Source: Aurelia coerulea (taxonomy: Eukaryota; Cnidaria; Scyphozoa; Semaeostomeae; Ulmaridae). From it: a stretch of DNA of 64,000 bases. The notes under the pieces were generated by a model. That model did not search any database. It saw nothing but the letters and a program-made list of their open reading frames with translations, and was not told where the DNA came from. Of the stretch, positions 18,301 to 62,926 are shown piece after piece. The stretch spans positions 13,589,511 to 13,653,510 of the forward strand of contig CM076956.1 in assembly GCA_039566865.1 (NCBI GenBank). Direction: 5' to 3'. The first letter of the stretch is position 1, and each line of letters opens with the position of its first letter. The translations under genes were made by a program, and so were the position numbers.

Positions 18301-20269
18301 ACCTGATTTTTGGCCAAAAAAGTAAGGCTATACCCTTTGCTTTTTGGCAAAAATAGGCCCATTTTGAAAAACTTGATTTTTGGCCAAATAGTAAGGCTAT
18401 AGCCTTTGGTTTTTGGCAAAAATAGGCCCATTTTGAAAAACCTGATTTTTGCCCAAAAAGTAAGGCTATACCCTTTGCTTTTTGGCAAAAATAGGCTCAT
18501 TCTGAAAAACCTGATCATTGCCCATAAAGTAAGGCTATAGCCTTTGCTATATGGCAAAAATAGGCCCATTTTGAAAAAACTTGATTTTTGGCCAAAAAGT
18601 AAGGCTATAGCCTTTGCTTTTTGGCAAAAATAGGCCCATTTGGAAAAACTTGATTTTTGGCCAAAAAGTAAGGCTATAGCCTTTGCTTTTGGGCAAAAAT
18701 AGGCCCATTTTGAAAAACCTGATTAACGCTAAGGCCGCTCATTTTGTCAGCATAGACCCCCTGCGTTTGTTTAATCTCCTGCCCATACCCCTCGCTCCCA
18801 GTCCATGCATTCCTCATCGTGTTTGCATGCTTTCGGTTCGGACAAATCTTGTTCACGAAATTTGTTTTCAAGATGATATCCGAAGGTATCATTCGTATCA
18901 GAATGATGGCTCATGGTAGAATGCTCTATTTGAAGATGATTTTATCTCGCCGTGCAGCCATGTTGATGTTGGCCTAAAAGAGCATCACAGTTCGTAGTTC
19001 TGGATTCGCCTTCCATTGTCTAGGCCATTTGCCTTGCGTCACATAATCGATCAAGAACAGCGTGTTATCCATCACTCTCTCCTGGTTGCATTATTCATGG
19101 CATTTGTATATCAACTCCATCTGCTATTTCAATACCTGGAGAAAGATGATGCCTGAAGTGTAATGGACTAGAAAACCGAAGCTGGGACGAAGTGTAGCTT
19201 AGCTTATAGCCATTATTCCCAACCAACATCATCTGGCGCCACTCACACTGTCATATTCACGAACCCAAATTGAAAGAGGCGTTCCATTTGTTGTTGTGCC
19301 CATAAAGTACAAATTTCAAGCAAATAGAAATGCTTCACAATTTAATGACAATTCTCAACATCAGAGGTAGGATTCAAGAAGAAAATGTAAGAATAGCAAC
19401 TCATTGAAGGCCTGTCATCATACTTCTTGACAAAAACACAGATTGCTCTTATTATCTTTCACTTCATCATAGTCAACAACGTTAACGAAATCTTGTTATA
19501 TGTAAGTGGAAGTTGATAATGAAGCCAGACAAAATCTACCCAACCAAAAGCAGTCCCCAACAGGAGTAAGACATCAAGTACAGTTCCTGAGCAAATTAAC
19601 GGTGTGCTTTGTTTGGCATTCATCAGTGCAACTTTCAGCCAGACCACAATAACAATGTCAATACTCTATGGTTCTAAATGAATACAAGTGGCAACATTTA
19701 TTTACTGCTGGTGTACTGCTGACCACTCAGTTCTACCTTCTCCAAGTCAAATGCTTGTCAGTCGAATATTGGCATTATTTCTTGGGCAATTCATGCGAAG
19801 CAGGGATCTCAAATACTGCAACATGAAGATTTGGAAATATAAAGGTAATGTAATGAATGCCAAATGATAAAGTACAAATTCTTGTCCTTACAGGGCATTA
19901 GTGAGTTTCAATTTAAAGCAACAAGGGCCTACATTCTTTTTTTCAGCATATCGGTTTGATTCTAACGTTGTCAGTTGGCTCACTTTCCAAGCTGTACAAC
20001 AAGATCGTCTCATCAGCTTCACCAAGAGACCTACACAGAATGTCTCAGAATTATTTGCAGGAGGAAACCATAAAAATCTTCCAGCACATTCACCATGTGA
20101 AAGTAAACCTTTCCCTATCTTGTAACCCCAACTTATTCTTGCCAGTAGGTCACTTTCACAACCTTAAATCTTATTTGCTCTCAGAGAAGCACAAGAAATG
20201 ACCGTCAAATGAAACAACAGCAGTGACCAATGTTGACATGAAACATATGCAACCCACCCCCTCCCCTTC

Positions 20270-21216
20270 ACCTACCCCATACTTCTTTGTTTTCTTGCAG
20301 ATACAGTATACTGTACTTCAAACAATGATGCAAAGTTTAGGCAACACAAAAAATTGAAGTCTTTGCAAGGAATGAGATCTATTGATCTACTGTATCTACC
20401 TATTAATGTTCATTAACCAATTATAGGTTCATTAGGCACAGGTTCGTTACTGGTTGGCGACTATAACCTGCGCTAGATATATGGATAATATTATTTGCAG
20501 ATTATAGATTAAAAAATGTGTAGCAATTCAACAAAAGTAGGAAGGGTGCTCCAATATACAGTAAAGGTATATTAAACGCCAGCCCCTATTGAGCACTCCC
20601 CACCCCTCTCTTCTCTTCTTCTCTGCAGGTTCACACAAATGGGATTCATCATGTAATTGTCAGTAGTGTTTCAGGTACATAGAGAACAGAAACAATAGCC
20701 ACCCTCCTCCACCCCTTTGTTCTTTGTTTTCCTTGCAGCTCAAGTAGGTTCACAACTTCAATGCCTAAAGTGATAGGCCAACGACAAGAATTGAAATCCT
20801 TGTAAAAAAGAAGTTCAAAAGTAATGCAGGATTTTAAAGGAACATAATTGTGCAGTTCAATTTTCCCCCAGTTACCACCCCTCCTCTTTATGCATCTTTG
20901 TGTGTTTATTTATTTGCAGGCCTAACAGTCAACCAGCTCTATGCAAAGCCTTTCAGGCAGCAATCAAAGATAGATTTGATTGATAGAAAATATTCACAAC
21001 AATATGCCACAGAAAACTACAACAGAATGAAATTGTCATCAAATAGGAAGATTCCGCTAAATCAGCCTAACACCTGTCACACTGTCAAAACATATCAATG
21101 TACCCTCATTGTCCCATTTTTTCTAATGATTTCTTTGTTGCAGCTAGTGTCCCTTGATTTAAGCCAAAAGTTATTCTTAGACCAGCATATGCTCGCTTTT
21201 GCTATCTTTTCAACAG
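20270..21216 (+). other. ladder of splice-acceptor-like sites in L1
   Basis: Pyrimidine-rich tracts followed by CAG end at about 20300, 20628, 20738, 20919, 21143 and 21216. Typical forms are TTTGTTTTCTTGCAG and TTTTCCTTGCAG, often preceded by a C-rich run. The sequence after CAG is partly alike from site to site and matches the ladders in L2 and L3. They look like animal 3' splice sites, but use in splicing is only an inference. Confidence 0.5.
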
Positions 21217-21639
21217 GTTTACAGAGTTGCGAGAGACACACGTAGCTCACAAGGAAGACCACATGCAACTGGCTATGTCAGTCTATCCTGAGAAAGATTC
21301 AACAAGAAAAGGTGACTTTACTAGGACATCTCCACCGTACACATAAGGTACTCGCTAGTGATCAGGTGAAAGAACAGGAGAGGACGGCAAAGGGTTAACA
21401 ACGTTATGGAAAAAAAAAATGTTGCCTGGTTCTTTCCCGTGGTCCCCGTCCCCGGCCGCGGCTTCTTGCCAAGTCAAAAGTCAAGTAGTTCGTGGTTAGT
21501 CGGTCGGTCGGCAAAAAATCAAAGGCATGCTTTGGGGGTATCTTGGCAGTAGGGCCACCATTATGGTGGCTCTGAGAATATGATTTTGGTCACGATAGCA
21601 ATAAAGTCCAATCAACAGTCAACAGGCATGGCTATTAAT

Positions 21640-21835
21640 CACCGGTCTTGTTTAAAAGAGATCAGGGCAGCGTTGAAGAAAGTTGAAGCAAGCTGAAACC
21701 TGTGACCCCGGCAAGACACCGGTCTTGTTTCAAAGAGGCAGGGCAGCGTTGAAGAAAGTTGAAATAGGCTGTAACCTGTGACCCCGGCAAGACACCGGTC
21801 TTGTTTAAAAGAGGTCAAGGCAGCCATGAAATAAA
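21640..21835 (+). repeat. 77 bp minisatellite in the right arm of L1
   Basis: Two to three units share GACACCGGTCTTG, AGGGCAGCGTTGAAG and AAGTTGAA. The same repeat is longer in the neighbouring short element (22395-22775), where GACACC recurs 77 bp apart at 22415 and 22492 and again at 22663 and 22740. Confidence 0.85.
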
Positions 21836-21947
21836 GCATATGTACAAATGCCAAAGATACGACCCCAAAAGCTGCCAATGATAAGTGAAAAGGGGAATAC
21901 AGTCTCTTATTTTGTGTTGGGCGTTCTCAGCGGCCGTCGAGCGTTAA

Positions 21948-21975
21948 GTGCAGCATTCTACGCAGTAAATGTGTG
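21948..21975. other. 28 bp palindromic spacer, family 1
   Basis: It lies exactly between the TTAA ending L1 (21944-21947) and the TTAA starting S1 (21976-21979). It contains the stem CATTCTAC / GTAAATG around GCA, with one bulged C. Together with the converging inverted repeats it forms a larger imperfect palindrome of about 70 bp. The length and fold match the spacers of families 2 and 3. Confidence 0.85.
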
Positions 21976-22896
21976 TTAACGCTAAGGCCGCTCATTTTGT
22001 CAGCATAGACCCCCTGCGTTTGTGTAATCTCCTGCCCATACCCCTCGCTCCCAGTCCATGCATTCCTCATCGTGTTTGCATGCTTTCGGTTCGGCCAAAT
22101 CTTGTTCACGAAATTTGTTTTCCACCCTCCCTCCCTCGAGTCATGGCTATTGTTTACGGCCCGTAGTCCAGTACCCCATTGGGTCGTATCTGAAGTCCCT
22201 TAAATCACATATGGATTGCCCTAATAGGCAGTCCGTTATCCAACCCAGTAGGGCCACCATTATGGTGGCTCTGAGAATATGATTTTGGTCACGATAGCAA
22301 TAAAGTCCAATCAACAGTTATCCGTTCTGATGAGCGTCATTAATTAGTCTGTATTTAGCCTGTATGATAATTTGTTATGTTTAAAGAAATAGCTGTAACC
22401 CGTGATCCCGGCAAGACACCGGTCTTGTTTCAAAGAGATCAGGGCAGCGTAAAAGAAAGTTGAAGAAAGCTGGAACCCGTGATCCCGGCAAGACACCGGT
22501 CTTGTTTCAAAGAGATCAGGGCAGCGTAAAAGAAAGTTGAAAAAAAAAAAAAAAAAAAAAAAGCTGGAACCCGTGATCCCGGCAGGACACCGGTCTTGTT
22601 TAAAAGAGATCAGGGCAGCGTTGAAGAAAGTTGAAGCAAGCTGAAACCTGTGACCCCGGCAAGACACCGGTCTTGTTTCAAAGAGGTCAGGGCAGCGTTG
22701 AAGAAAGTTGAAATAGGCTGTAACCTGTGACCCCGGCAAGACACCGGTCTTGTTTAAAAGAGGTCAAGGCAGCCATGAAATAAAGCATATGTACAAATGC
22801 CAAAGATACGACCCCAAAAGCTGCCAATGATAAGTGAAAAGGGGAATACAGTCTCTTATTTTGTGTTGGGCGTTCTCAGCGGCCGTCGAGCGTTAA
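21976..22896 (+). mobile_element. family 1 short element (S1)
   Basis: It begins with the same 147 bp as L1 (two base differences seen) and ends with the same right arm and TTAA (22893-22896). Between them lies a 123 bp interior of its own (22123-22245) that starts CACCCTCCCTCCC and holds GGGTCGTATCT (22181). That motif is inverted as AGATACGACCCC at 22804-22815, 81 bp from the right end. The shared right arm starts CAGTAGGGCCACC, where an 8-1-8 perfect palindrome GCCACCAT-T-ATGGTGGC lies (22253-22269). A ~22 nt poly-A run interrupts the minisatellite at 22540-22562. No coding capacity. Confidence 0.85.
22395..22775 (+). repeat. 77 bp minisatellite in S1
   Basis: About five units with the conserved blocks CCGGCAAGACACCGGTCTTG, AGGGCAGCG and AAAGTTGAA. 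One unit is expanded by a poly-A run at 22540-22562. The block CACCGGTCTTG contains the palindrome ACCGGT. Confidence 0.9.
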
Positions 22897-25800
22897 CCTT
22901 TGCTTTTTGGCAAAAATAGGCCCATTTTGAAAAACCTGATTTTTGCCCAAAAAGTAAGGCTATACCCTTTGCTTTTTGGCAAAAATAGGCCCATTCTGAA
23001 AAACCTGATCATTGCCCAAAAAGTAAGGCTATAGCCTTTGCTATATGGCAAAAATAGGCCCATTTTGTAAATCCTGATTTTTGCCCAAAAAGTAAGGCTA
23101 TAGCCTTTGCTATATGGCAAAAATAGGCCCATTTTGAAAAAACGGATTTTTGCCAAAAAGTAAGGCTATAGCCTTTGCTTTTTGGCAAAAATAGGCCCAT
23201 TTGGAAAAACTTGATTTTTGGCCAAAAAGTAAGGCTATAGCCTTTGCTTTTTGGCAAAAATAGGCCCATTTTGAAAAATCTGATTTTTGCCCAAAAAGTA
23301 AGGCTATACCCTTTGCTTTTTGGCAAAAATAGAACCATTTTGAAAAACCTGATAATTGCGCAAAAAGTAAGGCTATAGCCTTTGCTATATGGCAAAATAG
23401 GCCCATTTTGTAAATCCTGAATTTTGCCCAAAAAGTAAGGCTATAGCCTTTGCTATATGGCAAAAATAGGCCCATTTTGAAAAAACGGATTTTTGCCAAA
23501 AATTAAGGCTATAGCCTTTGCTTTTTGGCAAAAATAGGCCCATTTGGAAAAACTTGATTTTTGGCCAAAAAGTAAGGCTATAGCCTTTGCTTTTTGGCAA
23601 AAATAGGCCCATTTTGAAAAACCTGATTTTTGGCCAAAAAGTAAGGCTATCCCCTTTGCTTTTTGGCAAAAATAGGCCCATTTGGAAAAACTTGATTTTT
23701 GGCAAAAATAGGCCCATTTGGAAAAACTTGATTTTTGGCCAAAAAGTAAGGCTATACCCTTTGCTTTTAGGCAAAAATAGGCCCATTTGGAAAAACTTGA
23801 TTTTTGGCCAAAAAGTAAGGTTATAGCCTTTGCCTTTTGGCAAAAATAGGCCCATTTTGAAAATCCTGATTTTTGCCCAAAAAGTAAGGCTATACCCTTT
23901 GCTTTTTGGCAAAATAAGGCCCATTCTGAAAAACCTGATCATTGCCCAAAAAGTAAGGCTATAGCCTTTGCTATATGGCAAAAATAGGCCCATTTTGTAA
24001 ATCCTGATTTTTGCCCAAAAAGTAAGGCTATAGCCTTTGCTATATGGCAAAAATGGGCCCATTTTGAAAAAACGGATTTTTGCCAAAAAGTAAGGCTATA
24101 GCCTTTGCTTTTTGGCAAAAATAGGCCCATTTGGAAAAGCTTGATTGTTGGCCAAAAAGTAAGGCTATAGCCTTTGCTTTTGGGCAAAAATAGGCCCATT
24201 TTGAAAAACCTGATTTTTGGCCAAAAAGTAAGGCTATACCCTTTGCTTTTTGGCAAAAATAGGCCCATTTGAGAAAACTTGATTTTTGGCCAAAAAGTAA
24301 GGCTATAGCCTTTGCTTTTTGGCAAAAATAGGCCCATTTTGAAAACCCTGATTTTTGCCCAAAAAGTAAGGCTATACCCTTTGCTTTTTGGCAAAAATAG
24401 GCCCATTTTGAAATACCTGATTCTTGGCCAAAAAGTAAGGCTATAGCCTTTGCTATGTGGCAAAAATAGGCCCATTTTGAAAAACCTGATTTTTGCCCAA
24501 AAAGTAAGGCTATAGCCTTTGCTTTTTGGCAAAAATAGGCCCATTTTGAAAACCCTGATTTTTGCCCAAAAAGTAAGGTATAGCCTTTGCTTTTTGGCAA
24601 AAATAGGCCCATTTTGAAAAACTTGATTTTTGGCCAAATAGTAAGGCTATAGCCTTTGGTTTTTGGCAAAAATAGGCCCATTTTGAAAAACCTGATTTTT
24701 GCCCAAAAAGTAAGGCTATACCCTTTGCTTTTTGGCAAAAATAGGCCCATTTTGAAAAACCTGATTTTTGCCCAAAAAGTAAGGCTATACCCTTTGCTTT
24801 TTGGCAAAAATAGGCCCATTCTGAAAAACCTGATTTTTGCCCAAAAAGTAAGGCTATACCCTTTGCTCTTTGCCAAAAATAGGCTCATTCTGAAAAACCT
24901 GATCATTGCCCATAAAGTAAGGCTATAGCCTTTGCTATATGGCAAAAATAGGCCCATTTTGAAAAAACTTGATTTTTGGCCAAAAAGTAAGGCTATAGCC
25001 TTTGCTTTTTGGCAAAAATAGGCCCATTTGGAAAAACTTGATTTTTGGCCAAAAAGTAAGGCTATACCCTTTGCTTTTTGGCAAAAATAGGCCCATTTTG
25101 AAAAACCTGATTTTTGCCCAAAAAGTAAGGCTATAGCCTTTGGTTTTTGGCAAAAATAGGCCCATTTGGAAAAACTTGATTTTTGGCCAAAAAGTAAGGC
25201 TATAGCCTTTGCTTTTTGGCAAAAATAGGCCCATTTTGAAAAACCTGATTTTTGCCCAGAAAGTAAGGCTATACCCTTTGCTTTCTGGCAAAAATAGGCC
25301 CATTCTGAAAAACCTGATCATTGCCCAAAAAGTAAGGCTATAGCCTTTGCTATATGGCAAAAATAGGCCCATTTTGTAAATCCTGATTTTTGCCCAAAAA
25401 GTAAGGCTATAGCCTTTGCTATATGGCAAAAATAGGCCCATTTTGAAAAAACGGATTTTTGCCAAAAAGTAAGGCTATAGCCTTTGCTTTTTGGCAAAAA
25501 TAGGCCCATTTGGAAAAACTTGATTTTTGGCCAAAAAGTAAGGCTATAGCCTTTGCTTTTTGGCAAAAATAGGCCCATTTTGAAAAATCTGATTTTTGCC
25601 CAAAAAGTAAGGCTATACCCTTTGCTTTTTGGCAAAAATAGAACCATTTTGAAAAACCTGATAATTGCGCAAAAAGTAAGGCTATAGCCTTTGCTATATG
25701 GCAAAATAGGCCCATTTTGTAAATCCTGATTTTTGCCCAAAAAGTAAGGCTATAGCCTTTGCTATATGGCAAAAATAGGCCCATTTTGAAAAAACGGATT

Positions 25801-43897: not shown

Positions 43898-43942
43898 AGC
43901 CTTATATTATATAATACTTTATTAATAATGTATTATACTATA

Positions 43943-43973
<31 letters not shown>

Positions 43974-44115
43974 TAATTTATAATAATGTATTATACTTTA
44001 TATTATGTAATTATTTTTAGTTGTAGTTGGTTTAAATTAGTTGATGTATATATTATGCTGATAACTATTGTAAATAACCAACTTTAAAGAATGCTAAAAT
44101 AAAAAAATGAATAAT
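43898..44115. mobile_element. AT-rich 218 bp insertion in the satellite
   Basis: The array is interrupted by AT-rich unique sequence flanked by the 5 bp direct repeat GCTAT (43893-43897 and 44116-44120), consistent with a target-site duplication. Inside is a (GAT/AAT)n microsatellite at about 43945-43978, a direct repeat TAATGTATTATACT on both sides of it, and an inverted pair AGTTGGTT/AACCAACT. No ORF or clear terminal inverted repeat was seen. The duplication could also be chance, because GCTAT occurs in every monomer. Confidence 0.5.
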
Positions 44116-49539: not shown

Positions 49540-49567
49540 TCGAAAATTCTACGCTCGTAAATTGAGC
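49540..49567. other. 28 bp palindromic spacer at the outer left end of family 2
   Basis: Identical to the spacer between L2 and S2 (52364-52391), but here preceded by satellite (TTTTTGGCATAG) instead of TTAA. The stem is AATTCTACG / CGTAAATT with one bulged C and a CT centre. Its position shows that the spacer belongs to the left side of each element rather than only to the junction. Confidence 0.85.
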
Positions 49568-52363
49568 TTAACGCCAAGGCCACCAAACCCATTTGTCTCA
49601 CCCCCAAACCCCCTGGTTGGTCCACTAGTACCAGGTCTCACCTCATGGCATTGCCAACGCCTGTATCGAGCATCGCAATTCTTCCTGTTGACTCTGCTTT
49701 GGTGGGTTTGGTAGATCAAAGATTTGTCGATTATTCTGTGTATCTGACCGCTGCAATATTCTTATGTTGGCGTTGAAGTATCCGTGCAACAAGGTGGCAG
49801 TGGAATTCTCAATGTTATCATATTGTTATGAGCAGCCATTTTGACAGGAAAGAGGGAAGAGATGTGCAAGCTGTTGTTTACCTGTCTCGCCCGATGGCCT
49901 ACCCAGTATCGCAAGAACCAAGCTCAAGCAATACGTGCAATTTGTTATCCTTCTCGGGTATGGCTTTATATCAGAAATAACACTTTCATTACTGGAACTG
50001 TGGTTGCAGATCACGACTGGTGTATGAGGCAGGCATGAAAAGCTACCATCGAATCCAGCTCATTAATCCAGCGTCGGGCATGGCGCCAAATATGCAGCAA
50101 CGAGGAGCAAATTGGTGCTTGAGTAAGACTTCCTTCAGAGTCACAAACTACTGCATCTCAACCGATTATCTAATCCCAGTAAGGTGCTTCAATTGCCGTT
50201 GATTATACAGCATCAACTTCATTAAGAATCAATGGGGGTAGCAATGGTGGAAATGAAGGTATCGAAAGCTGCCATATCATAGACATATCAAGTGCTGAGC
50301 AAACAAGAAAGAAGGGTCCAGAACTTGCGGGTTGTTGAAAAAAGGAACAATATTGTACTCTGGCTGATGTTGCCGCAGTTTACAATCATTATGTGCTGAG
50401 CACAGCTATAAACGTCAAAAGAAAAGAAAAGAAAAACAAAAAAGGGCATCTTTGTCAGCTGCTGGTTACAGCTGGTTACCCACTCAAGGCAAATTGGCAG
50501 CATTACAAACAGACAAGGTATCTGATCTTCAATTATCTGTCCTCCATTTACAAACCCCCGGTTATATAGATTTACTGCACAGCGAGTTTCCCTGTAGGAA
50601 TTTCCCACCTCTATTACATCACTTTCTAGCCTTCTTCAATTTAGTGGTGGTATGCAATAACCTTGCTTGAATTGAAAAGTCACTGTAATGACAGACATAT
50701 CCGTCAGCATTGAAGTTGCTCATTGAGTTTTAACCACATTGATAGAGTAGCATTGCTTAAAGCATACATTACACCATGCATGGCCTATGGTTGTAACACA
50801 AATATTGCAGGTTTTGTCCAGCTGTTCCATGGTCTATGGTCTACGCAATAGAATCTTATAAGTCTACATCATTTGCTATCATCCCAGTTACACTAGTTGT
50901 GCATTGTACAAGCACCTGGCTTCATTCATAATGCCAGGAGGTAAACGACTCTTCCAGTGTAGTGGTCAGGAGAAGGACACATGTTCTTCCAAATTCTCAA
51001 GTAGAGGATGATCACTGTTCAATTTAGAGCAATACTGACTAACCAACCCATCACCCCTCCCCCCCCCTCCTTTCCCTCACTTTTTCTTGCAGGTGCAGTA
51101 ATCCCACATTATCCTACCAGGTGTACTTTTTTGGGCATACCCTTGGGCAACGCTGCAACTTGTGCTCTTTGCAGAAAAAGAAAGTTTGTCACTTGATATG
51201 CAGTATTAGAAGTTAGGCTCAAGATAATTGTCCTTTGGGCCTAAACTGCTGCACAGAGATACTAATAGGATGACCACTGTTTTATGTTGATAAACGCACA
51301 TTCCCAGGTTTACCAACCCCCTTTCCCCATCCTTTATTTTGTTTCCTTGCAGGTACAGTAATCTCACAGCTTTATACACAGGGCCTTCATGCAATGCTAT
51401 CATTGACACCCCTTTGGGCATCAACACATTTTGATCCAGTGCAGGAAATGTCACTTAGACAAAATCATCAGGGGTTGAGTATAATATGTACATTTATCTA
51501 CAACAAGAACCACAGCAACAAATCACATACTACAGCAGATGGTTTAGTACAGTATTTCCCACAGTGAAACCCTTCATCTCCTCACAGATGTTGACACACA
51601 GTCTCAGCATATCATATAAACTCCTACCATTGCACCCTTTAGTTGCTCCCTGCTGTAGCTAATTGTATTTGAACCCTCAGCGATTGTTAGAACAGCCCAT
51701 GTGCTCGCTCTTGATTATCTTTCAACAGGTGTCCAAAGTTGCATGATGTAAAACAACTCAGAACCATCAGATGTGCTTCAAATTGTTCAACAGCATTCTC
51801 ACACAAATGGGACTTCACCGAAAGTGAATCTATGCAGAGCCACTTGTAGAATTTGAGTGAGGTAGATAAACATATGTTGTCAGTTAAAGTAGAAGTAATT
51901 CATCAGATGCCCAATGAGCTTGGTTGTACGAGGATACAAAAGTTGTGAGTTTATGTTATGGTCATATAAGGTCATCCTGGTGGCTTTGGGGTTACTTTGG
52001 CGGTTACTTTGGCGGTATGGCCGCACGTTTGCGGCTTTTATCTGAGATTTAGTTGTATGAGAAGAATTAATTGAAAAAGTATGAGGATTAGAGTTTGAGA
52101 TTTAGTTGCATGAGTCTCAAGAAATATGAGTCTCTAGAAGAATATGGCTCAAGAAAAGGCAATTGAAAAGTATCAGGCAGATGTTAAAAGAATGCCGTAT
52201 TAACAAGTATGAAGAAAGAAGTATCAGACTTTAGAAGTATATCACTTAAGAGTATGTGATTTAATGAAGGTTGTATTATATGCCAGATATGACCCCAAAA
52301 GCTGCCAAGGATGAAGGTTGTTATCTCTATTGTTCAGTCTGTTTGGTGGCCGCCCGGCGTTAA
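49568..52363 (+). mobile_element. family 2 long element (L2), TTAA-bounded, non-coding
   Basis: The left end reads TTAACGCC-AA-GGCCACCAAAC. The right end is the inverted GTTTGGTGGCC-GCCC-GGCGTTAA, with the same 2 nt and 4 nt internal spacing as family 1. Its first 162 bp plus the preceding hairpin (49540-49729) are identical by eye to 52364-52553, and its last 351 bp (52013-52363) match those of S2. The 2.3 kb interior is distantly related to L1 and L3, for example in a CTTTCAACAGGTGTCCAAAGTTGC segment near 51720. No transposase was found; short frames only. Confidence 0.85.
51040..51760 (+). other. ladder of splice-acceptor-like sites in L2
   Basis: Pyrimidine tracts ending in CAG lie at about 51092 (TTTTTCTTGCAG), 51352 (TTTCCTTGCAG), 51587 (TCTCCTCACAG) and 51728 (TCTTTCAACAG). 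The sequences after the first two are alike (GTGCAGTAATC and GTACAGTAATC). The last matches the final rung of L1 and L3. Function in splicing is inferred only. Confidence 0.5.
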
Positions 52364-52391
52364 TCGAAAATTCTACGCTCGTAAATTGAGC
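52364..52391. other. 28 bp palindromic spacer between L2 and S2
   Basis: It lies between TTAA 52360-52363 and TTAA 52392-52395, exactly 28 bp as in families 1 and 3. The stem is AATTCTACG / CGTAAATT. With the converging ends (GGCC..GGCGTTAA and TTAACGCC..GGCC) it makes a palindrome of roughly 75-80 bp. Confidence 0.88.
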
Positions 52392-54221
52392 TTAACGCCA
52401 AGGCCACCAAACCCATTTGTCTCACCCCCAAACCCCCTGGTTGGTCCACTAGTACCAGGTCTCACCTCATGGCATTGCCAACGCCTGTATCGAGCATCGC
52501 AATTCTTCCTGTTGACTCTGCTTTGGTGGGTTTGGTAGATCAAAGATTTGTCGCCCTCCCGCCTCCCTCAATTCAGTACCTTGTCCACAAGATCCGGGTC
52601 ATATCTCTGGTTTAAGTCCATAGTTGTACATAGTCAGAAGTGGTCTGGCCACTCACTTGCGGCCTTTCTCAGTATTATCCCATAACCCGCTCATAATTTT
52701 GTTCACTTAAATCGCATATCTTATGTAGTGCACGGGTTTGCTCAGGTGTTGCCTGTCTTGCCCCACAAGTGCACCCTCGCTTAGGCTTGGTATCACGTAT
52801 GCGTCTCACATAGTTGTATGAGCCTTACAATAGAATGAAGTCCAAGATGAAATTGAAAAAGTATGAGGTTTAAGTATTCGAGACTTAAAATGTATGAGTT
52901 TTAATAGTCTCGGGTAAAATGAGACTCTGAAATGAAATTGAAAAAGCATGAGACTTAAAATGTATGAAACTTAGAACTGTATGAGTATTAGAAATACGGG
53001 TATCTGGAAAGATGAGACTTAAGAAAATGAAATAGAAAAAGTATGAGTCTTAAAATGAATGAGACTTAGAATTGTACGAGTCTTAGAAATTCGAGTCTCT
53101 GGAAAGATGAGACTTGAGAAAATGAAATAGAAAAAGTATGAGACTTAAAATGTATGAGACTTAAAATGTATGAGACTTAGAATTGTATGAGTCTTAGAAA
53201 TACGAGTCTCTGGAAAGATGAGACTTGAGAAAGTGAAATTGAAAAAGTATGAGACTTAAAATGTATGAGACTTAAAATGTATGAGACTTAAAACGTATGA
53301 GACTTAGAATTGTATGAGTCTTAGAAATACCAGTCTCAGGAAGATGAGACTTGAGAAAATGAAATTGAAAAAGTATGAGACTTAAAATGTATGAGACTTA
53401 AAATGTATGAGACTTAGAATTGTATGAGTCTTAGAAATACCAGTCTCAGGAAGATGAGACTTGAGAAAATGAAATTGAAAAAGTATGAGACTTAAAATGT
53501 ATGAGACTTAAAATGTATGAGACTTAGAATTGTATGAGTCTTAGAAATACCAGTCTCAGGAAGATGAGACTTGAGAAAATGAAATTGAAAAAGTATGAGA
53601 CTTAAAATGTATGAGACTTAAAATGTATGAGCGTTAGAACTGTATGAGTCTTAGAAATACGAGTCTCTGGAAAGATGATACTTGCGAAAATGAAATTGAA
53701 AAAGTATGAGACTTAAAATGTATGAGTCTTAGAACTGTATGAGACTTAAAATGTATGAAATTAAAATGTCTCTGGAAAGATGAGACTTTGAAAAAGTATC
53801 AGACTTAGTGGTATGCGTTGAATAGTCTCTGAAGGGATGATGAGACTTTGAAATAATATGAGATTGAAGCCGGTATGGCCGCACGTTTGCGGCTTTTATC
53901 TGAGATTTAGTTGTATGAGAAGAATTAATTGAAAAAGTATGAGGATTAGAGTTTGAGATTTAGTTGCATGAGTCTCAAGAAATATGAGTCTCTGGAAGAA
54001 TATGGCTCAAGAAAAGGCAATTGAAAAGTATCAGGCAGATGTTAAAAGAATGCCGTATTAACAAGTATGAAGAAAGAAGTATCAGACTTTAGAAGTATAT
54101 CACTTAAGAGTATGTGATTTAATGAAGGTTGTATTATATGCCAGATATGACCCCAAAAGCTGCCAAGGATGAAGGTTGTTATCTCTATTGTTCAGTCTGT
54201 TTGGTGGCCGCCCGGCGTTAA
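52392..54221 (+). mobile_element. family 2 short element (S2)
   Basis: It has the same ends as L2 (left to 52553; right arm 53871-54221) with an interior of 1317 bp. The interior starts CCCTCCCGCCTCCC and includes GGGTCATATCT (52596), which faces AGATATGACCCC in the right arm (about 54143-54154). Most of the interior is a ~110 bp minisatellite. The right arm begins CGGTATGGCCGCA with the hairpin GCCGCA-CGTT-TGCGGC, equivalent to 52020-52035 in L2. The element ends at TTAA 54218-54221 directly against satellite. No coding capacity. Confidence 0.85.
52840..53860 (+). repeat. 110 bp minisatellite in S2
   Basis: Units contain GAAATTGAAAAAGTATGAG, repeated ATGAGACTTAAAATGT, and GAGTCTTAGAAATAC. 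GAAATTGAAAAAG recurs at 53361, 53471 and 53581 (period 110), while outer units are shorter and diverged. It is confined to S2; L2 has only the edge-like GTATGAGGATTAGAG in its right arm. Confidence 0.9.
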
Positions 54222-54590
54222 CTTTTTGGCAAAAATAGGCCCATTTGGAAAAACTTGATTTTTGCCCAAAAAGAAAGGCTATAGCCTTTGCGATATGACA
54301 AAAATAGGCCCATTTTGAAAAAACGGATTTTTGCCAAAAAGTAAGGCTATAGCCTTTGCTTTTTGGCAAAAATAGACCCATTTGGAAAAACTTGATTTTT
54401 GGCCAAAAAGTAAGGCTATAGCCTTTGCTTTTTGGCAAAAATAGGCCCATTTTGAAAAACATGCTTTTTGCCCAAAAAGTAAGGCTATACCCTTTGCTTT
54501 TTGGCAAAAATAGGCCCATTTTGAAAAACCTGATTCTTGCCCAAAAAGTAAGGCTATAGCCTTTGCTTTTTGGCAAAAATAGGCCCATTT
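54222..54590 (+). repeat. short satellite remnant between composites 2 and 3
   Basis: About five monomers in the main orientation. The part from about 54371 to 54590 is nearly identical to 59490-59710, including the rare AATAGACCCATTTGG and AACATGCTTTTTGCCC variants. The remnant therefore belongs to a duplicated segment that also includes the family 3 element. Confidence 0.9.
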
Positions 54591-56329
54591 TTTTTTAGCC
54601 TAAGAGTTTCTACTATAACGCGCTTTTCAAGACCAAGATTACGTTCGAAACTATCTTGTTGCATCAGAAGAGAAACGACTCCATTTGAAGTTCATTTTTC
54701 ACGCTGCGCAGACATGTTGGCATGAAAGAGCAAGGAACTTTGTTGTGTGGTTTCTTGGCACGTCTTCTAATGGTGAAATGGCCTAAGTAGGTAGGCTGAT
54801 TTCCGTCATAATGGCCGATGAAGAACAGCGAATATTCTCTCTTGCATTCTCTCATTAACGGATTTCATATCAAGTGGAACTGCGGTTTGAATCCCATGTG
54901 ACCAATGATGACCAAACCGTATGAAGCTCTGAGCTTACAGAACGATATAATTATGACTCGGTCAGGTCAAGTCATTCACGTTAATCTTCAACTGCACGAT
55001 CATGATCATTTTACATCACACAAATTTATAGTCTGGAATGGAAATTTGAATCATGTAACCAGATGAATTCCAGCCCTTGGAAGCATGGCCAACAGGAATA
55101 AGAAATCAAGGATAGTTTGAGAGTCGATAAAACACTTTGCTATTCAGTATTACTGTTTGTTGGTATTCATTCATCATTTGCTTCCACATCCATCACCACA
55201 TCGTCATTGACAAGCTGTATGGTTTTGAATGATTGAATACAAGTAAGTGGCAACATTGTTTGATGGCTGGTGAACTGCTAACCACTCAGCAACTTGCGTG
55301 ATGGAATTATCCATGGCAATTCATTGGAAAAGTGGGGATCTCAAATAAGGGGAACAAAAAGAATTTGAAAGCAGAAAGGTAATGCATTGAATCCTTGTTA
55401 ATAAAGTTTCTGTCTTTACAACTAACTAACTACAGGGCCTAAACCTTCTCGTCCAGCAGATCAATTGATCTAAGATTTTCAACCTTTATCAGCGTAATAA
55501 AACTACCAAAAATTTCACCAAGTCTTAGATGTGGAATTCAGTCAGCTCTCATAACCCGTTTAAAAATCTGAAAAGTTGTGTTATTTGGTAGTTACAGTAG
55601 GAGCCGTTATAGAGATCAATCTCAGGAAGTCTTTAGTTTTACCTAACCTTGAAGCCAATAATTTGCAGAGTGCTGCCAGACCAATCACAAAGTATGGCCA
55701 CGCTTCTATCGAGTCTACTGTCATGACACTTATTTTGCAATATTGTATTGTTCAAGCTACAATGTGTACCAAAAGAAGAAGGACATTATGGATATATGCC
55801 CTCTTTATACACTGTTTTTCCTCAGGTTTATGGCCATGTTACATTCACTTAACCACTTAACCAGTATAGTATTAGCGAACAAATCCTTTGCCCTGAGTTT
55901 TGTTTGTCTGTTTGTCAGCAACGATCCTCAATAATGTTAGCACAACAATAATATAGTAGTCACATGAGGTGTCAACCCAGGAATTCCAACTTTCTCATGT
56001 TTTAGTGTTACAATGCATATTCTCAAACGTGTTACTTAATTAGCTTATCAATCTATGACACAATCTTAGTTCTGCAGCTGCACAAGACACCTACACAGGT
56101 TGTCTCAGAATCTTGTGAAGTAGGACACCTATAATCTTCCAGCACAATCATGACGTGACAACGAACTTCCCTACTGCATTACCCCACCCTCATTCAGTGT
56201 GCTTCGTAATGACATTGTGTCACTTTCATAACCTTGATTTTGATTCACTCTAGGACAATCGCAAGAAGCATGCTAGGTGAAGCAATAATAACTACAAACC
56301 TTTGTCAGTCAAAATGTGCAATCCAACCC

Positions 56330-57490
56330 CCCCCTTTTTCATTTTCTCTTTCATTTTCAGGAATTTTCTCAGCTAAGCTTACATGTTAGTCTAATATAAG
56401 AAGATAGTCTAATAGTCTAATATATCTACGAAAGAACGCTTACAAGTATGAGTACACGAAAAACATTTAAAAAATTGCTGAAGAGGACAAGTAAAAATAA
56501 CTCATAATAAGCTTTCGAGCCATTTGCACTCCCTTTCACCTACATCACCCCTCCTTTTGTTTCTATTGCTGGAAGTTTCAGGATTGTTTAAACGGTCATG
56601 CACAGTCTTAGGATACACACACAGACACACACAGAAAAATAGAAATAACAAATTTATCATGACATCGCAGGGCTGGAAATTAGAAAGTATCACCTCAGCA
56701 ATGTCAGAAACAGGAAGGGTGCTCTAATACTCAGCAATTTGTATTACACCCCATCCCCTACTTGGCAGTCCCACCACCCTTCTCTCTCTCTCTCTTTATC
56801 TCATTATCTGCAGATTCAGAAGGCTCAGACAAAAGGAATTCATCAAGTACCAAAAGAATCCACCAGTATTGGTTCAGGTATAAAAGAGAGTAGCATAGAG
56901 AAGCAAAAACAAAAACAAACAAACAAACAATTAATCTAGATTAATCAATCCAAAGATTCACCATTATGCAACCCCCCCCCCACCCTTCCGCCTTTGTTTT
57001 TTCTTGCAGGTCAAGTAGGTTCACAACTTTATCCCAAACAATTCTTGACCACAACAAGCAGACCAACAAACGTACAAAAATACTGTTTTTAATTAAATAA
57101 AAAAACAAACAAACAAACAACAAATTCAATGCTCACCTGTCGCCACCCCTTGTTTATGTATCTCTATGAGTTTTTCTTTGCAGACCAAACAGTCAACCTA
57201 CTCACCTACTCTATGCAAAGCCTTGCAGGCAACAAACAAATGTTGACTTTATTACAGGAAAATGTTCACAACAAATGTCACAAATATATAACAACAACAA
57301 AATTATTATCAAATAGAACAAACCAGCTGAATCAGCCTGGCCTATGTTAATCAGGCAAAGTTTATCAATATATCCCTATTGTCCCACTCTCATTCAATTT
57401 CTTACGGATTGCAAATAAGGTTCCTTGTTTAAGGCCAAAATTATCATTAGTATGGCATATGCTCGCTCTCTCTCTTCTTTCAACAGGTCT
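56330..57490 (+). other. ladder of splice-acceptor-like sites in L3 copy 1
   Basis: Pyrimidine tracts ending in CAG lie at about 56360 (TCTTTCATTTTCAG), 56813 (TCTCATTATCTGCAG), 57009 (TTTTTTCTTGCAG), 57183 (TTTTTCTTTGCAG) and 57486 (TCTTCTTTCAACAG). The text after 57009, GTCAAGTAGGTTCACAAC, closely matches that after 20738 in L1. Copy 2 has the same set at about 62124, 62601, 62803, 63001 and 63304. Confidence 0.5.
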
Positions 57491-58095
57491 CCAGAGTTAC
57501 ATCATGCACACATAGTTCAAAATGAGGAACTCCGGCAACTGCCTGTATCAGAAGGTTATACAACAACAAAATTCAACAAGAAAAAGGGACTGTACAAGGA
57601 CCATACGGTATACATGATGTATCTATTAATAACCGGGCGAAAGGAAAAGATGCCAACAAAAACACATACCATCAAGCTTCAGAATTGGGGCATATGCGAC
57701 AGCAGCGTACATCCCTGTCTGGCTGATAAAAGTCCTGGGGCATTGGTCCACTAACTGCTTGAGGGGTATATTAGAGCACCTAGAAATATATTATATCAAG
57801 TTCCTGACATCCTAGCAGAAAACCAGTCCCAGCATCCACGGGCTGGTCCCCATACTAAGGGACCACCTGGGAATTTAGCAGTACGAATATGGTCAACTAC
57901 AGTGGTAGGGTCTAGGGTGCACAAATTTGGCTGTACTTTGGCGGTTTGGGCCACACAATAGGTGGCCAGGTTAACTATACTTGTTTGTACCTTAAGATAT
58001 AGGGATTTAATATGCCCCCTTAACTAGCCTCCCTATATTAACCAGTTGTTTTAGTTATTGATCTAGGTAGTTTATTGTAGTTTTAAGACAACTAC

Positions 58096-58470
58096 TACAA
58101 GGACGACTACTACTACCTCTCGCCGACTGCGGAGGAGATGTTCTACCTCGCACTGCGGTGGAGGAGAACGACTGCTACTACCTCATGCCGACGGCGGAGG
58201 AGAAATACTACCTCGCACTGCGGTGGAGGAGAATTACTGCTACTACCTCTCGCAGACTGCGGAGGAGAGGTTCTACCTTGCACAACGGTGGAGGAGAATC
58301 GACTGCTACTACCTCATGCCGACGGCGGAGGAGAAATACTACCTCGCACTGCGGTGGAGGAGAATTACTGCTACTACCTCTCGCCGACTGCGGAGGAGAA
58401 ATACTACCTCGCACTGCGGTGGAGGAGAATTACTGCTACTACCTCTTGCTGCGGCAGAGGAGAATTACAC
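58096..58470 (+). repeat. 65 bp GC-rich minisatellite in the right arm of L3a
   Basis: About six imperfect units of ~65 bp, each of two related halves built around TACTACCTC, GCGGAGGAG and GCACTGCGGTGGAGGAG. It stands out by GC content from its AT-rich surroundings. Overlapping frames of about 118-134 codons in more than one phase result from the repeat and are not considered genes. S3 carries the same repeat with no visible change (58915-59289). Confidence 0.9.
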
Positions 58471-58604
58471 CAAACTACTCGCACAAAACGTTAGTACTTA
58501 CCAGTATGTGTTATGTTACATATTTTGTGATATTTCAGATACGACCCCTAGACCGCCACTGAATTGTCTCTTTTAGAATCATTCTCCGGAGCCGCATGGG
58601 TTAA

Positions 58605-58632
58605 TAGCACATTTATGCCCCATAAATGTTTT
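58605..58632. other. 28 bp palindromic spacer between L3a and S3
   Basis: It lies between TTAA 58601-58604 and TTAA 58633-58636, exactly 28 bp. The stem ACATTTATG / CATAAATGT is perfect over 9 bp around CCC. An ungapped alignment with the family 1 spacer keeps GCA at positions 3-5 and TAAATGT at positions 19-25. Confidence 0.88.
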
Positions 58633-59423
58633 TTAACACACAGGCGGAGGTTAATTAATTTACCGTTCTGCGCACGCCATTTCCCGCGGTTTTTCATCTC
58701 CGGTCTTTCTTAGGATGCCTAGACAAATTTCTCTGGGTCGTATCTGTCCCCCCTTTGTATCGGTTTGGGCCACACAATAGGTGGCCAGGTTAACTATACT
58801 TGTTTGTACCTTAAGATATAGGGATTTAATATGCCCCCTTAACTAGCCTCCCTATATTAACCAGTTGTTTTAGTTATTGATCTAGGTAGTTTATTGTAGT
58901 TTTAAGACAACTACTACAAGGACGACTACTACTACCTCTCGCCGACTGCGGAGGAGATGTTCTACCTCGCACTGCGGTGGAGGAGAACGACTGCTACTAC
59001 CTCATGCCGACGGCGGAGGAGAAATACTACCTCGCACTGCGGTGGAGGAGAATTACTGCTACTACCTCTCGCAGACTGCGGAGGAGAGGTTCTACCTTGC
59101 ACAACGGTGGAGGAGAATCGACTGCTACTACCTCATGCCGACGGCGGAGGAGAAATACTACCTCGCACTGCGGTGGAGGAGAATTACTGCTACTACCTCT
59201 CGCCGACTGCGGAGGAGAAATACTACCTCGCACTGCGGTGGAGGAGAATTACTGCTACTACCTCTTGCTGCGGCAGAGGAGAATTACACCAAACTACTCG
59301 CACAAAACGTTAGTACTTACCAGTATGTGTTATGTTACATATTTTGTGATATTTCAGATACGACCCCTAGACCGCCACTGAATTGTCTCTTTTAGAATCA
59401 TTCTCCGGAGCCGCATGGGTTAA
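58633..59423 (+). mobile_element. family 3 short element (S3)
   Basis: The left end TTAACACACAGGCGGAGG is shared with L3 copy 2 (97 bp including the spacer, one difference seen). A 59 bp interior (58702-58760) holds GGGTCGTATCTG (58735-58746). The right arm (58761-59423) has the same 663 bp length as that of L3a and carries CAGATACGACCCC at 59355-59367, 56 bp from the end. It ends CCGCATGGGTTAA, then TAGGCCC of the satellite. No coding capacity. Confidence 0.85.
58915..59289 (+). repeat. 65 bp GC-rich minisatellite in S3
   Basis: The same units in the same order as 58096-58470, 819 bp downstream. The lack of visible differences in a repeat-rich segment implies very recent copying or gene conversion between the two right arms. 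Confidence 0.9.
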
Positions 59424-60150
59424 TAGGCCCTTTTCGAAAATACTGATTTTTGGGCAAAAGTAAGGCTATAGTCTTTGCTTTTTGGCAAAAATAGACCCAT
59501 TTGGAAAAACTTGATTTTTGGCCAAAAAGTAAGGCTATAGCCTTTGCTTTTTGGCAAAAATAGGCCCATTTTGAAAAACATGCTTTTTGCCCAAAAAGTA
59601 AGGCTATACCCTTTGCTTTTTGGCAAAAATAGGCCCATTTTGAAAAACCTGATTCTTGCCCAAAAAGTAAGGCTATAGCCTTTGCTTTTTGGCAAAAATA
59701 GGCCCATTTTGAAAAACATGCTTTTTGCCCAAAAAGTAAGGCTATAGCCTTTGCTATATGGCAAAAATAGGCCCATTTTGAAAAAACGGATTTTTACCAA
59801 AAAGTAAGGCTATAGCCTTTGCTTTTTGGCAAAAATAGGCCCATTTGGAAAAACTTGATTTTTGGCCAAAAAGTAAGGCTATAGCCTTTGCTTTTGGGCA
59901 AAAATAGGCCCATTTTGAAAAACCTGATTTTTGGCCAAAAAAGTAAGGCTATACCCTTTGCTTTTTGGCAAAAATAGGCCCATTTGGAAAAACTTGATTT
60001 TTGGCCAAAAAGTAAGGCTATACCCTTTGCTTTTTGGCAAAAATAGGCCCATTTGGAAAAACCTGATTTTTGGCCAAAAAGTAAGGCTATACCCTTTGCT
60101 TTTTCCTGAAAATAGGCCCCTTTTGATAATACCGATTTTTGGCCAAAAAG
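59424..60150 (+). repeat. satellite block between the two family 3 copies
   Basis: About ten monomers. The first (AATAGGCCCTTTTCGAAAATACTG) and the last two (TTTTTCCTGAAAATAGG; TTTTGATAATACCG) are diverged, edge-like units. From about 59490 it matches the remnant at 54371-54590. Confidence 0.92.
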
Positions 60151-60178
60151 TAGCACATTTATGCCCCATAAATGTTTT
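60151..60178. other. 28 bp palindromic spacer at the outer left end of family 3 copy 2
   Basis: The same sequence as 58605-58632, here preceded by satellite GGCCAAAAAG instead of TTAA, and followed by TTAA 60179-60182. The first bases TAG could be shared with the satellite AAAAAGTA, so the outer breakpoint is ambiguous by 2-3 bp. Confidence 0.86.
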
Positions 60179-62895
60179 TTAACACACAGGCGGAGGTTAA
60201 TTAATTTACCGTTCTGCGCACCCCATTTCCCGCGGTTTTTCATCTCCCTTCCCAGCATGCATTATAGTTGAGAGCACATGCAATGTTTCGTTTAGGCCAT
60301 TCGTTCCTGATTTTTTTTTAGCCTAAGAGTTTCTACTATAACGCGCTTTTCAAGACCAAGATTACGTTCGAAACTATCTTGTTGCATCAGAAGAGAAGCG
60401 ACTCCATTTGAAGTTCATTTTTCACGCTGCGCAGACATGTTGGCATGAAAGAGCAAGGAACTTTGTTGTGTGGTTTCTTGGCACGTCTTCTAATGGTGAA
60501 ATGGCCTAAGTAGGTAGGCTGTTTTCCGTCATAATGGCCGATGAAGAACAGCGAATATTCTCTCTTGCATTCTCTCATTAACGGATTTCATATCAAGTGA
60601 AACTGCGGTTTGAATCCCTTGTGACCAATGATGACCAAACCGTATGAAGCTCTGAGCTTACAGAACGATATAATTATGACTCGGTCAGGCCAAGTCATTC
60701 ACGTTAATCTTCAACTGCACGATCATGATCATTTTACATCACACAAATTTATAGTCTGGAATGGAAATTTGAATCATGTAACCAGATGAATTCCAGCCCT
60801 TGGAAGCATGGCCAACAGGAATAAGAAATCAAGGATAGTTTGAGAGTCGATAAAACACTTTGCTATTCAGTATTACTGTTTGTTGGTATTCATTCATCAT
60901 TTGCTTCCACATCCATCACCACATCGTCATTGACAAGCTGTATGGTTTTGAATGATTGAATACAAGTAAGTGGCAACATTGTTTGATGGCTGGTGAACTG
61001 CTAACCACTCAGCAACTTGCGTGATGGAATTATCCATGGCAATTCATTGGAAAAGTGGGGATCTCAAATAAGGGGAACAAAAAGAATTTGAAAACAGAAA
61101 GGTAATGCATTGAATCCTTGTTAATAAAGTTTCTGTCTTTACAATTAACTAACTACAGGGCCTAAACCCTCTCGTCCAGCAGATCAATTGATCTAAGATT
61201 TTCAACCTTTATCAGCGTAATAAAACTACCAAAAATTTCACCAAGTCTTAGATGTGGAATTCAGTCAGCTCTCATAACCCGTTTAAAAATCTGAAAAGTT
61301 GTGTTATTTGGTAGTTACAGTAGGAGCCGTTATAGAGATCAATCTCAGGAAGTCTTTAGTTTTACCTAACCTTGAAGCCAATAAGTTGCAGAGTGCTGCC
61401 AGACCAATCACAAAGTATGGCCACGCTTCTATCGAGTCTACTGTCATGACACTTACTTTGCAATATTGTATTGTTCAAGCTACAATGTGTACCAAAAGAA
61501 GGAGGACATTATGGATATATGCCCTCTTTATACACTGTTTTTCCTCAGGTTTATGGCCATGTTACATTCACTTAACCACTTAACCAGTATAGTATTAGCG
61601 AACAAATCCTTTGCCCTGAGTTTTGTTTGTCTGTTTGTCAGCAACACAGCCATCAGCTCTTGGTGGCTGATTAATATAGTCACATCCTCAATAATGTTAG
61701 CACAACAATAATATAGTAGTCACATGAGGTGTCAACCCAGGAATTCCAACTTTCTCACGTTTTAGTGTCACAATGCATATTCTCAAACGTGTTACTTAAT
61801 TAGCTTATCAATCTATGACACAATCTTAGTTCTGCAGCTGCACAAGACACCTACACAGGTTGTCTCAGAATTTTGTGAAGTAGGACACCTATAATCTTCC
61901 AGCACAATCATGACGTGACAACGAACTTCCCTACTGCATTACCCCACCCTCATTCAGTGTGCTTCGTAATGACATTGTGTCACTTTCATAACCTTGATTT
62001 TGATTCACTCTAGGACAATCGCAAGAAGCATGCTAGGTGAAGCAATAATAACTACAAACCTTTGTCAGTCAAAATGTGCAATCCAACCCCCCCCCCCCTT
62101 TTTCATTTTCTCTTTCATTTTCAGGAATATTCTCAGCTAAGCTTACATGTTAGTCTAATATAAGAAGATAGTCTAATAGTCTAATATATCTACGAAAGAA
62201 CGCTTACAAGTATGAGTACACGAAAAACATTTAAAAAAAAAAAAAAAACAAAAAACAAAAAAATTGCTGAAGAGGACAAGTAAAAATAACTCATAATAAG
62301 CTTTCGAGCCATTTGCACTCCCTTTCACCTACATCACCCCTCCTTTTTTTCTATTGCTGGAAGTTTCAGGATTGTTTAAACGGTCATGCACAGTCTTAGG
62401 ATACACACACAGACACACACAGAAAAATAGAAATAACAAATTTATCATTACATCGCAGGGCTGGAGATTAGAAAGTATCACCTCAGCAATGTCAGAAACA
62501 GGAAGGGTGCTCTAATACTCAGCAATCTGTATTACACCCCATCCCCTACTTGGCAGTCCCACCACCCTTCTCTCTCTCTCTCTTTATCTCATTATCTGCA
62601 GATTCAGAAGGCTCAGACAAAAGGAATTCATCAAGTACCAAAAGAATCCACCAGTATTGGTTCAGGTATAAAAGAGAGTAGCATAGAGAAGCAAAAACAA
62701 AAACAAACAAACAAACAATTAATCTAGATTAATCAATCCAAAGATTCACCATTATGCAATTCCCCCCCCCCCCCACCCTTCCGCCTTTGTTTTTTCCTTG
62801 CAGGTCAAGTAGGTTCACAACTTTATCCCATACAATTCTTGACCACAACAAGCAGACCAACAAACGTACAAAAATACTGTTTTTTAATTAAAAAA

Positions 62896-62926
<31 letters not shown>

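Follow-up and report, generated by a model that had tools for sequence, protein, structure and literature searches.

Two non-coding elements of Aurelia coerulea adjoin head to tail, mostly in the same order, and probably move as a single Helitron-like unit

Two kinds of non-coding element, one long (L) and one short (S), lie next to each other head to tail at dozens of sites in the Aurelia coerulea genome, with one order preferred. We consider it likely that both are non-autonomous Helitron/Helentron-like units, that S and L adjoin head-to-tail without any gap, and that the pair moves as a heterodimer. Pairs from three families (F1, F2 and F3) lie within the window, that is, the whole stretch of 64,000 nt analysed here (Table 1), and searches were extended to the A. 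coerulea assembly (574 Mb).

Table 1. Positions of the L and S units, their parts and the surrounding satellite in the window.
Feature	Coordinates	Strand	Remarks
L1 unit	18723..21947	-	5' end at 21947; truncated 3' end at 18723 without the 28-nt tail; ends common to S1
S1 unit, including 28-nt 3' tail (21948-21975)	21948..22896	-	solitary S copies have the tail at the flank
S1 28-nt tail (earlier "spacer")	21948..21975	-	imperfect palindrome CATTTAC-TGC-GTAGAATG
L2 unit, own 28-nt tail 49540-49567	49540..52363	-	tail identical to 52364-52391
S2 unit, 28-nt tail 52364-52391, central tandem repeats	52364..54221	-	
L3a unit	54592..58604	-	3' end missing; satellite takes over at about 54592
S3 unit, 28-nt tail 58605-58632, 65-bp tandem repeats	58605..59423	-	
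L3b unit, tail 60151-60178	60151..64000	-	extends past window edge, then S
5' module common to L1 and S1	21547..21947	-	inner end is hairpin + 7 nt at 21547
5' module common to L2 and S2	52013..52363	-	inner end is hairpin + 7 nt at 52013
5' module common to L3a and S3	57942..58604	-	inner end is hairpin + 7 nt at 57942
L core, family 1	18870..21546	.	
L core, family 2	49730..52012	.	
L core, family 3, copy L3a	54592..57941	.	L3b copy at about 60248-63759
69-bp satellite, frequent insertion place	6744..18722; also 22897-49539, 54222-54591, 59424-60150	.	

A preliminary description of this DNA had reported three L-28-S composites in which two TTAA tetramers are separated by exactly 28 bp, and all three junctions are as described: the tetramers at L1-S1, L2-S2 and L3a-S3 flank 21948-21975, 52364-52391 and 58605-58632. 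The window holds one further TTAA pair with this gap (n=4), within the S2 tandem repeat. An S likewise adjoins L3b, with a junction match from G000:C14:13653868 (about +64358 of the window). Within each family L and S have common ends, of 309 nt at 99.7% and 147 nt at 98.6% in F1, 351 nt at 99.7% and 162 nt at 100% in F2, and 663 nt at 100% (L3a versus S3) and 69 nt at 98.6% (L3b versus S3) in F3; the S units have central tandem arrays of 77-bp (S1), about 110-bp (S2) and 65-bp (S3) repeats. The ends had been said to differ between families. They are indeed diverged, yet the families are still homologous, each of the three carrying GGGGTCRTATCT at 57-82 nt from one end. The L cores of the three families are also related to one another. 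The argument that recent copying of one composite is insufficient stands across the three families, but within each family copying appears to have occurred.

The 28 bp, previously read as a fixed spacer, are the 3' terminus of the right-hand element. Identical copies of the family 28-mer lie to the left of L2 and L3b, and elsewhere the tail bounds L copies and five solitary F1 S copies. L1 is without its own 28-mer, but other F1 L copies (e.g. L009, L012 and L015) have the tail where L1 is cut, and L3a is without its left end. Since the 28 bp are S's own tail, L and S abut and the tail merely resembles a spacer. On the minus strand, a unit opens with the inverted repeat TTAAC... and closes with its 3' counterpart ...GTTAA, followed by the palindromic tail. 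The TTAA belongs to the inverted repeat of the element and not to the target site. The match between the 5' and 3' repeats has a background of 0.0007 in F1 and 0.0006 in F2; in F3 it is weak (0.018) and, with the TTAA removed, within chance (41% of shuffles). In all three families the tail palindrome occupies the same place, with stems of 7, 8 and 9 bp, against a background among 4000 non-satellite 28-mers of 3.75% for at least 7 bp, 1.2% for at least 8 bp and 0.35% for at least 9 bp. Tail folding energy is significant in F3 only and gives no backing to the tails of F1 and F2, and thus the case for a palindrome rests on the stem counts. A 5'-terminal hairpin above shuffles was found at 25, 35 or 45 nt in none of F1-F3. 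Inner hairpins at the L/S switch point exceed shuffles (F3 less so, 0.04); as equally good folds are reached by 11-20% of random 44-mers from the satellite-rich window, the case for these hairpins rests on their exact 7-nt spacing. A Pfam search of L1, L2 and L3a in six frames yielded a single sub-threshold match (RNA_pol_N, E 0.005), Rfam gave no match at gathering scores, and exact scans of viral and genome contig collections for the satellite, the ends and one junction gave no match.

Insertion is precise, without target duplication, before a site of about HTWT (H = A, C, T; W = A, T). The flanks overlap by 0 or 1 nt at 15/15 composites. When flanks were joined into empty sites, the unshifted join fitted best, with ≤5 mismatches, at 11/18 loci (0 mismatches in 6), the remaining 7/18 being uninformative or better fitted when shifted. 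The last base of the 5' flank is variable (g6 a4 t3 c2 in 15 composites), as is position +1 of the 3' flank (c8 a4 t3), and position +2 is T in 15/15.

Across the assembly we identified about 82 junctions of the L-28-S type: 28 in F1, all with 0 mismatches, 24 in F2 and at least 30 in F3, the last from 40 of 127 candidates scored. L lies to the left and S to the right in 67 of the about 82. The preliminary description had suggested that L and S are kept together and had proposed counting solitary and paired copies; 28/33 F1 S copies have a junction and 5/33 are solitary, and the spacing at junctions is constant, which bears the suggestion out. By order, the 28 F1 junctions comprise 23 L-28-S, one S-28-S, one S-28-L and three with the left partner undetermined; none is L-28-L. 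Intact junctions are lacking from 11/32 F2 L copies. Over n=20 loci, pairwise distances between L cores are congruent with those between S cores (Mantel r 0.956, p<=0.0002). The two main clusters are identical for L and S cores, with partial agreement at three clusters (ARI 0.55). An earlier test of this congruence, made with a poor alignment, had yielded r 0.385 (p 0.0001); on that alignment L and S ends within a locus have a mean distance of 0.008 versus 0.043 to other loci, but most loci have another locus that is equally close, and therefore this likeness does not establish local conversion. Taken together, the congruence of the unshared cores at 20 loci and the exact rejoining of outer flanks at 11/18 suggest that the S-L pair probably moves as one unit.

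Three other origins of the pairs were weighed. Cut-and-paste MITEs of the piggyBac or Kolobok type that target and duplicate TTAA, with 28 bp of host DNA between them, would agree with the earlier label "TTAA-bounded", which describes every window unit save for the cut end of L3a, and with the inverted repeats of F1 and F2. However, on the left side of L2 and L3b, and of those F1 composites whose outer tail is intact, flank meets tail without TTAA, the satellite, placed in register, has no TTAA at the S1, S2 and S3 sites, and the same 28-mer recurs at junctions on many contigs. The TTAA target-site duplication of piggyBac and Kolobok is thus absent here, and we rejected this origin, contradicted by flanks and empty sites, as having next to no likelihood. 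Spread of the composite by satellite amplification or segmental duplication, without transposition, gains from the 69-bp satellite on both sides of 10/20 F1-type composites (the window's own included) and from local composite clusters on C10 and C16. As a general account it is contradicted by composites on many contigs, in both orientations, in several satellite phases and outside the satellite, where joins are also precise (L017, L021b, L026 and L027), and we regard it as very improbable.

Repeated precise insertion of S at the 5' boundary of L, with S not travelling with L, is harder to dismiss. The TTAAC there resembles the target, its TTAA fitting HTW at target positions +1 to +3, and both solitary S copies and an S-28-S junction exist; precise outer flanks are compatible with it too. 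Against it stand the congruence of L and S cores, the scarcity of close F1 L copies without an intact S junction (3/25), and the order of the F1 junctions, with S-28-L seen once and L-28-L never. On balance we judge serial insertion unlikely.

For the heterodimer that we favour, we infer rolling-circle transposition, terminator bypass and a helper. A helper Rep-helicase would nick at the 5' end of S, read through the inner terminator of S and halt at the tail of L, so that the pair would be moved whole. A hairpin has been described as a bypassable terminator (PMC4778049). The first dimer probably formed by insertion of S in front of L's 5' TTAA, which resembles the target motif; an element whose own 5' end resembles about HTWT would account for head-to-tail joining. 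The assembly contains 124 Rep domain matches, some in open frames >1500 aa, and among 20 of these, searched about 1.5 kb each side (loci about 3.5 kb), no Rep-helicase with L/S ends was found. Inner and outer ends look identical, yet the pair outnumbers solo S, which counts against this mechanism.

The statement that no described element class has this plan was too strong, the anatomy being close to Helitron2/Helentron-type rolling-circle transposons. Bao and Jurka define Helitron2 by asymmetric terminal inverted repeats, the 3' copy 20-30 bp from the 3' end, and a 5' hairpin. Asymmetric repeats with the 3' repeat before a palindromic end, here at 28 nt, are present (the F3 match being weak), as is the 3'-terminal palindrome of Helitron2/Helentron, whereas a 5'-terminal hairpin involving the 5' repeat was not found in the L and S units of F1-F3. 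Insertion without target-site duplication is shared with the Helitron superfamily, and no coding capacity was found, as in non-autonomous Helitron2, Helentron and HINE elements. Helentron and HINE are reported to insert within a TT dinucleotide, and not before about HTWT as here; in mite HINE the repeats are 38-60 bp away from the 3' end. HINE (DINE-1-like) elements have central tandem repeats between two end modules, as S units do. As described, Cg_HINE of the Pacific oyster (PMC7492417) shares two end modules around satellite-like repeats, a subTIR, a 3' palindrome, lack of a TSD and ties to satellites, but consists of single elements without L/S pairing. Unlike Helitron2, Helentron and HINE, S-L pairs are common in this genome and a hairpin + 7 nt lies at the L/S switch. 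Tandem, neighbouring distantly related, composite or self-inserted Helitrons are also head-to-tail or adjacent and have been attributed to missed termination, circles or self-insertion (PMC4067079, PMC5148889, PMC5876387). As described there they are arrays, truncated copies or single cases, whereas here one unequal pair recurs, mostly in one order, at dozens of loci in three families. No report of a fixed-order L-S pair was found in the openly accessible literature searched; as far as that literature goes, the anatomy is of a known Helitron/Helentron kind and the fixed-order pair is the new part.

These pairs bear on how rolling-circle elements choose start and stop, offering identical ends inside and outside one unit in dozens of natural copies. 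Inner ends seem mostly passed over, and terminator bypass thereby becomes testable. Moreover, the pairs suggest a route for two elements with different cargo to become one heritable mobile unit. Tentatively, and at somewhat less than even likelihood, we propose a heterodimeric rolling-circle transposon of S then L with interchangeable ends, passed on together as a single mobile unit while at least three end families diverged, in which start and stop would be set by position (the outermost ends used, the inner passed) and L cores would have been exchanged between end families at the conserved internal hairpin + 7 nt. Unequal rates could alternatively have caused the differing groupings of the families, in which F1 and F2 are closest by their ends but F1 and F3 by their cores.

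We searched the whole assembly (574 Mb, 294 contigs), of which the window is a 64-kb piece; splice-like signals, together with its satellite, suggest an animal source. The preliminary description had reported three 28-bp gaps between TTAA tetramers, and these proved exact when the window was rechecked; it holds four TTAA pairs with this spacing, three of them junctions between a long (L) and a short (S) element. Counting L and S ends and spacings over the assembly, as proposed there, showed that such junctions recur in all three end families (F1 to F3). There are 28 F1 junctions, all at 0 mismatches, and none in a control with the pattern reversed; an additional diverged junction (C15:9630606) was found in one of two junction searches. 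With orders called by position and sequence, 23 of the 28 are L-28-S, one is S-28-S, one is S-28-L, none is L-28-L, and the left partner of three was not assigned. All 33 candidate F1 S cores were scored: 28 have a junction and 5 are solitary. F1 L cores occupy at least 40 loci (the best 40 of 48 candidates). Of the 25 loci at 88% identity or more, S comes next to L in 22, while 3 lack an intact junction; the remaining 15, more diverged, show no F1 junction among the matches listed.

The F2 pattern gave 25 matches, of which 24 were accepted as junctions; the other (C19:8530607, 3 mismatches) sits at the expected right end of S and was rejected. Scoring of all 35 F2 L candidates left 32 loci, with 21 pairing with a junction and 11 not; 20 of the 21 derive from the 24 pattern matches and one (C2:19315308) was seen in a separate search only. 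F3 has at least 30 junctions (from the best 40 of 127 candidates), 29 of the 30 with S-core sequence immediately to the right. Among the matches listed, 24 of these 30 pair with an L locus (40 used, the best of 43 candidates), 3 show S-28-S-like spacing and 3 are unassigned. One F1-type locus on contig C10 (L023) is a chain, L-S-S-L-S, and another (L022) is a solo L.

The 28 bp had been described as a spacer. They are instead the terminus of the right-hand element, since the same 28-mer also bounds L copies and S copies that have no neighbour. Within the window, the F2 28-mer has two identical copies, at the L2/S2 junction and directly left of L2; the F3 28-mer likewise has two, one on the left side of S3 and one on that of L3b, a further F3 long element. 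In the assembly, the F1 28-mer marks the boundary between L copies and the adjoining DNA, whether satellite or not, and also borders five solitary S copies, the one on C21 being diverged with an altered tail. The window's F1 composite lacks the L1 tail, and 26 bp of satellite, judged in register, are also missing. All three tails have a palindrome in the corresponding position, of 7 bp in F1 and 8 bp in F2 (each with a bulge) and of 9 bp in F3. Of 4000 non-satellite 28-mers, 3.75%, 1.2% and 0.35%, respectively, contain a stem of that length or longer. By folding energy F3 alone stands out. The F1 and F2 tails are similar (equally good in 0.04% of shuffles), F1 and F3 less so (3%), and the F2 to F3 similarity is not significant (37%).

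On the minus strand, the order within a unit is TTAAC (5′ repeat), 5′ module (which contains tandem repeats), core, 3′ module ending in GTTAA, and 28-nt tail. Between the 5′ and 3′ repeats the match exceeds background in F1 (0.0007) and F2 (0.0006) and is weak in F3 (0.018), where without TTAA it is at chance level. All three families share GGGGTCRTATCT, 57–82 nt from the 5′ end. Within a family both modules are common to L and S and the core differs. The shared 5′ module is closed in all three families by a stem of 6 or 7 bp exactly 7 nt ahead of the switch point, where L and S part; among 4000 element positions, 0.45% have a stem of at least 6 bp at this spacing. From the switch point on, the first bases of the L cores are CCAAGATA, CCAAAGTA and CCAAAGTA, one per family. 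Over 20 F1-type composites, in a test requiring exact matches, the switch point is identical in 14, at most 3 nt off in 3 and 7–18 nt further in in 3. The hairpin plus 7 nt appears to resemble a former terminator, and the difference between L and S may therefore lie in the sequence captured past it.

Pyrimidine-rich runs ending in TTGCAG or CAACAG, resembling splice acceptors, lie in the L cores, and several align by eye between L1 and L3a. A conserved frame is disfavoured because this alignment has indels; the L cores are possibly a captured spliced non-coding gene. G-runs before the 3′ module end the S1 and S2 cores and could form G-quadruplexes. By eye, GGGTCRTATCT near one S end opposes an inverted copy near the other in all three families.

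A 69-bp satellite, broken up by L and S elements, fills much of the window. In 18 F1-type composites we joined the two outer flanks and compared them with uninterrupted DNA; the unshifted join was best, with at most 5 mismatches, in 11 (L009, L011, L012, L014, L016, L017, L020, L021b, L026, L027 and L028), 6 of them with 0 mismatches. A 1-nt shift was better by one mismatch at L015 and 2-nt shifts fitted better at L019; L010, L013, L018, L024 and L025 gave no information or had been rearranged. Therefore, there was neither target duplication nor target loss at the informative loci. TTAA is taken as element sequence because the in-register satellite consensus continues with C at S1 and S2. The 3′ flank approximates HTWT, with T at +2 in 15/15, A/T at +3 in 14/15 and T at +4 in 13/15 (15 of 20 composites, omitting L010, L013, L018, L023b and the window's own). 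T at +2 is also found at L010 and L013 (by eye), L022, five solitary S copies, L2 and L3b, these sites being partly non-independent, with several at one shared satellite site. Five F1 composites (L012, L014, L016, L020 and L028) occupy the same palindromic satellite point, between AGG and CTAT on the element strand, which is perhaps a preferred target.

L-core distances correlate with S-core distances over 20 composites (r 0.956, p≤0.0002), and both cores sort the loci into the same two main clusters. With a division into three, the groupings agree in part (ARI 0.55), on an S core of only ~122 nt. Gene conversion through the common ends cannot force this agreement, because the cores are unshared between L and S. 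S might possibly insert repeatedly beside L rather than travel with it, since the TTAAC at L's 5′ end agrees with the target motif at its first three positions. Core congruence, the prevalence of a single order and the precision of the outer flanks together favour joint movement of S and L as a heterodimer.

The L and S units work like non-autonomous elements of Helitron2/Helentron type, a likeness short of strict membership. Against the definitions in passages of PMC3627910, PMC4067079 and PMC7492417, a 5′ hairpin was looked for in F1–F3 units and not found, and the composites do not sit in a TT target. The assembly has 124 Rep domain matches; in the 20 loci covered, about 3.5 kb each, no helper was linked to the units. 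In passages of the literature, the 3′ hairpin of Helraiser is a terminator that can be bypassed (PMC4778049), Helitron tandem arrays are explained by circles or by a failure to terminate (PMC4067079, PMC5876387) and self-insertion gives composites (PMC5148889). The simplest account is that transposition would initiate at S, bypass its inner tail and terminate at L's tail, which leaves solo S as a minority product unexplained. Tandem, adjacent and composite Helitrons are already known; in the literature searched we found no report of two unequal elements paired predominantly in a single order as a frequent form in three diverged families.

Coordinates of solitary copies and minor features
Feature	Position	Strand	Sequence or remark
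69-bp satellite			AAGGCTATAGCCTT
Solitary F1 S copy with 28-mer	C10:11611733
Solitary F1 S copy with 28-mer	C13:17492572
Solitary F1 S copy with 28-mer	C12:10304520
Solitary F1 S copy with 28-mer	C10:587144
Solitary F1 S copy with 28-mer	C21:12716460
L-core pyrimidine-rich runs	window 20257-21220	plus
L-core pyrimidine-rich runs	window 51050-51730	plus
L-core pyrimidine-rich runs	window 56300-57500	plus
S1 G-run	window 22123-22140	minus	GAGGGAGGGAGGG
S2 G-run	window 52554-52570	minus	GAGGGAGGCGGGAGGG
S1 inverted pair	window ~22181/22807		GGGTCRTATCT
S2 inverted pair	window ~52596/54143		GGGTCRTATCT
S3 inverted pair	window ~58735/59357		GGGTCRTATCT
Fold-back sequence	window 5547-5747		~200 bp, 77% inverted repeat, in non-satellite left flank
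Short AT-rich insertion	window ~43900-44090		breaks 69-bp satellite
Cluster of Rep-domain matches	G000 (the assembly):C3:33057621-33426406	one strand	several of the matches lie within open frames of about 2000 aa
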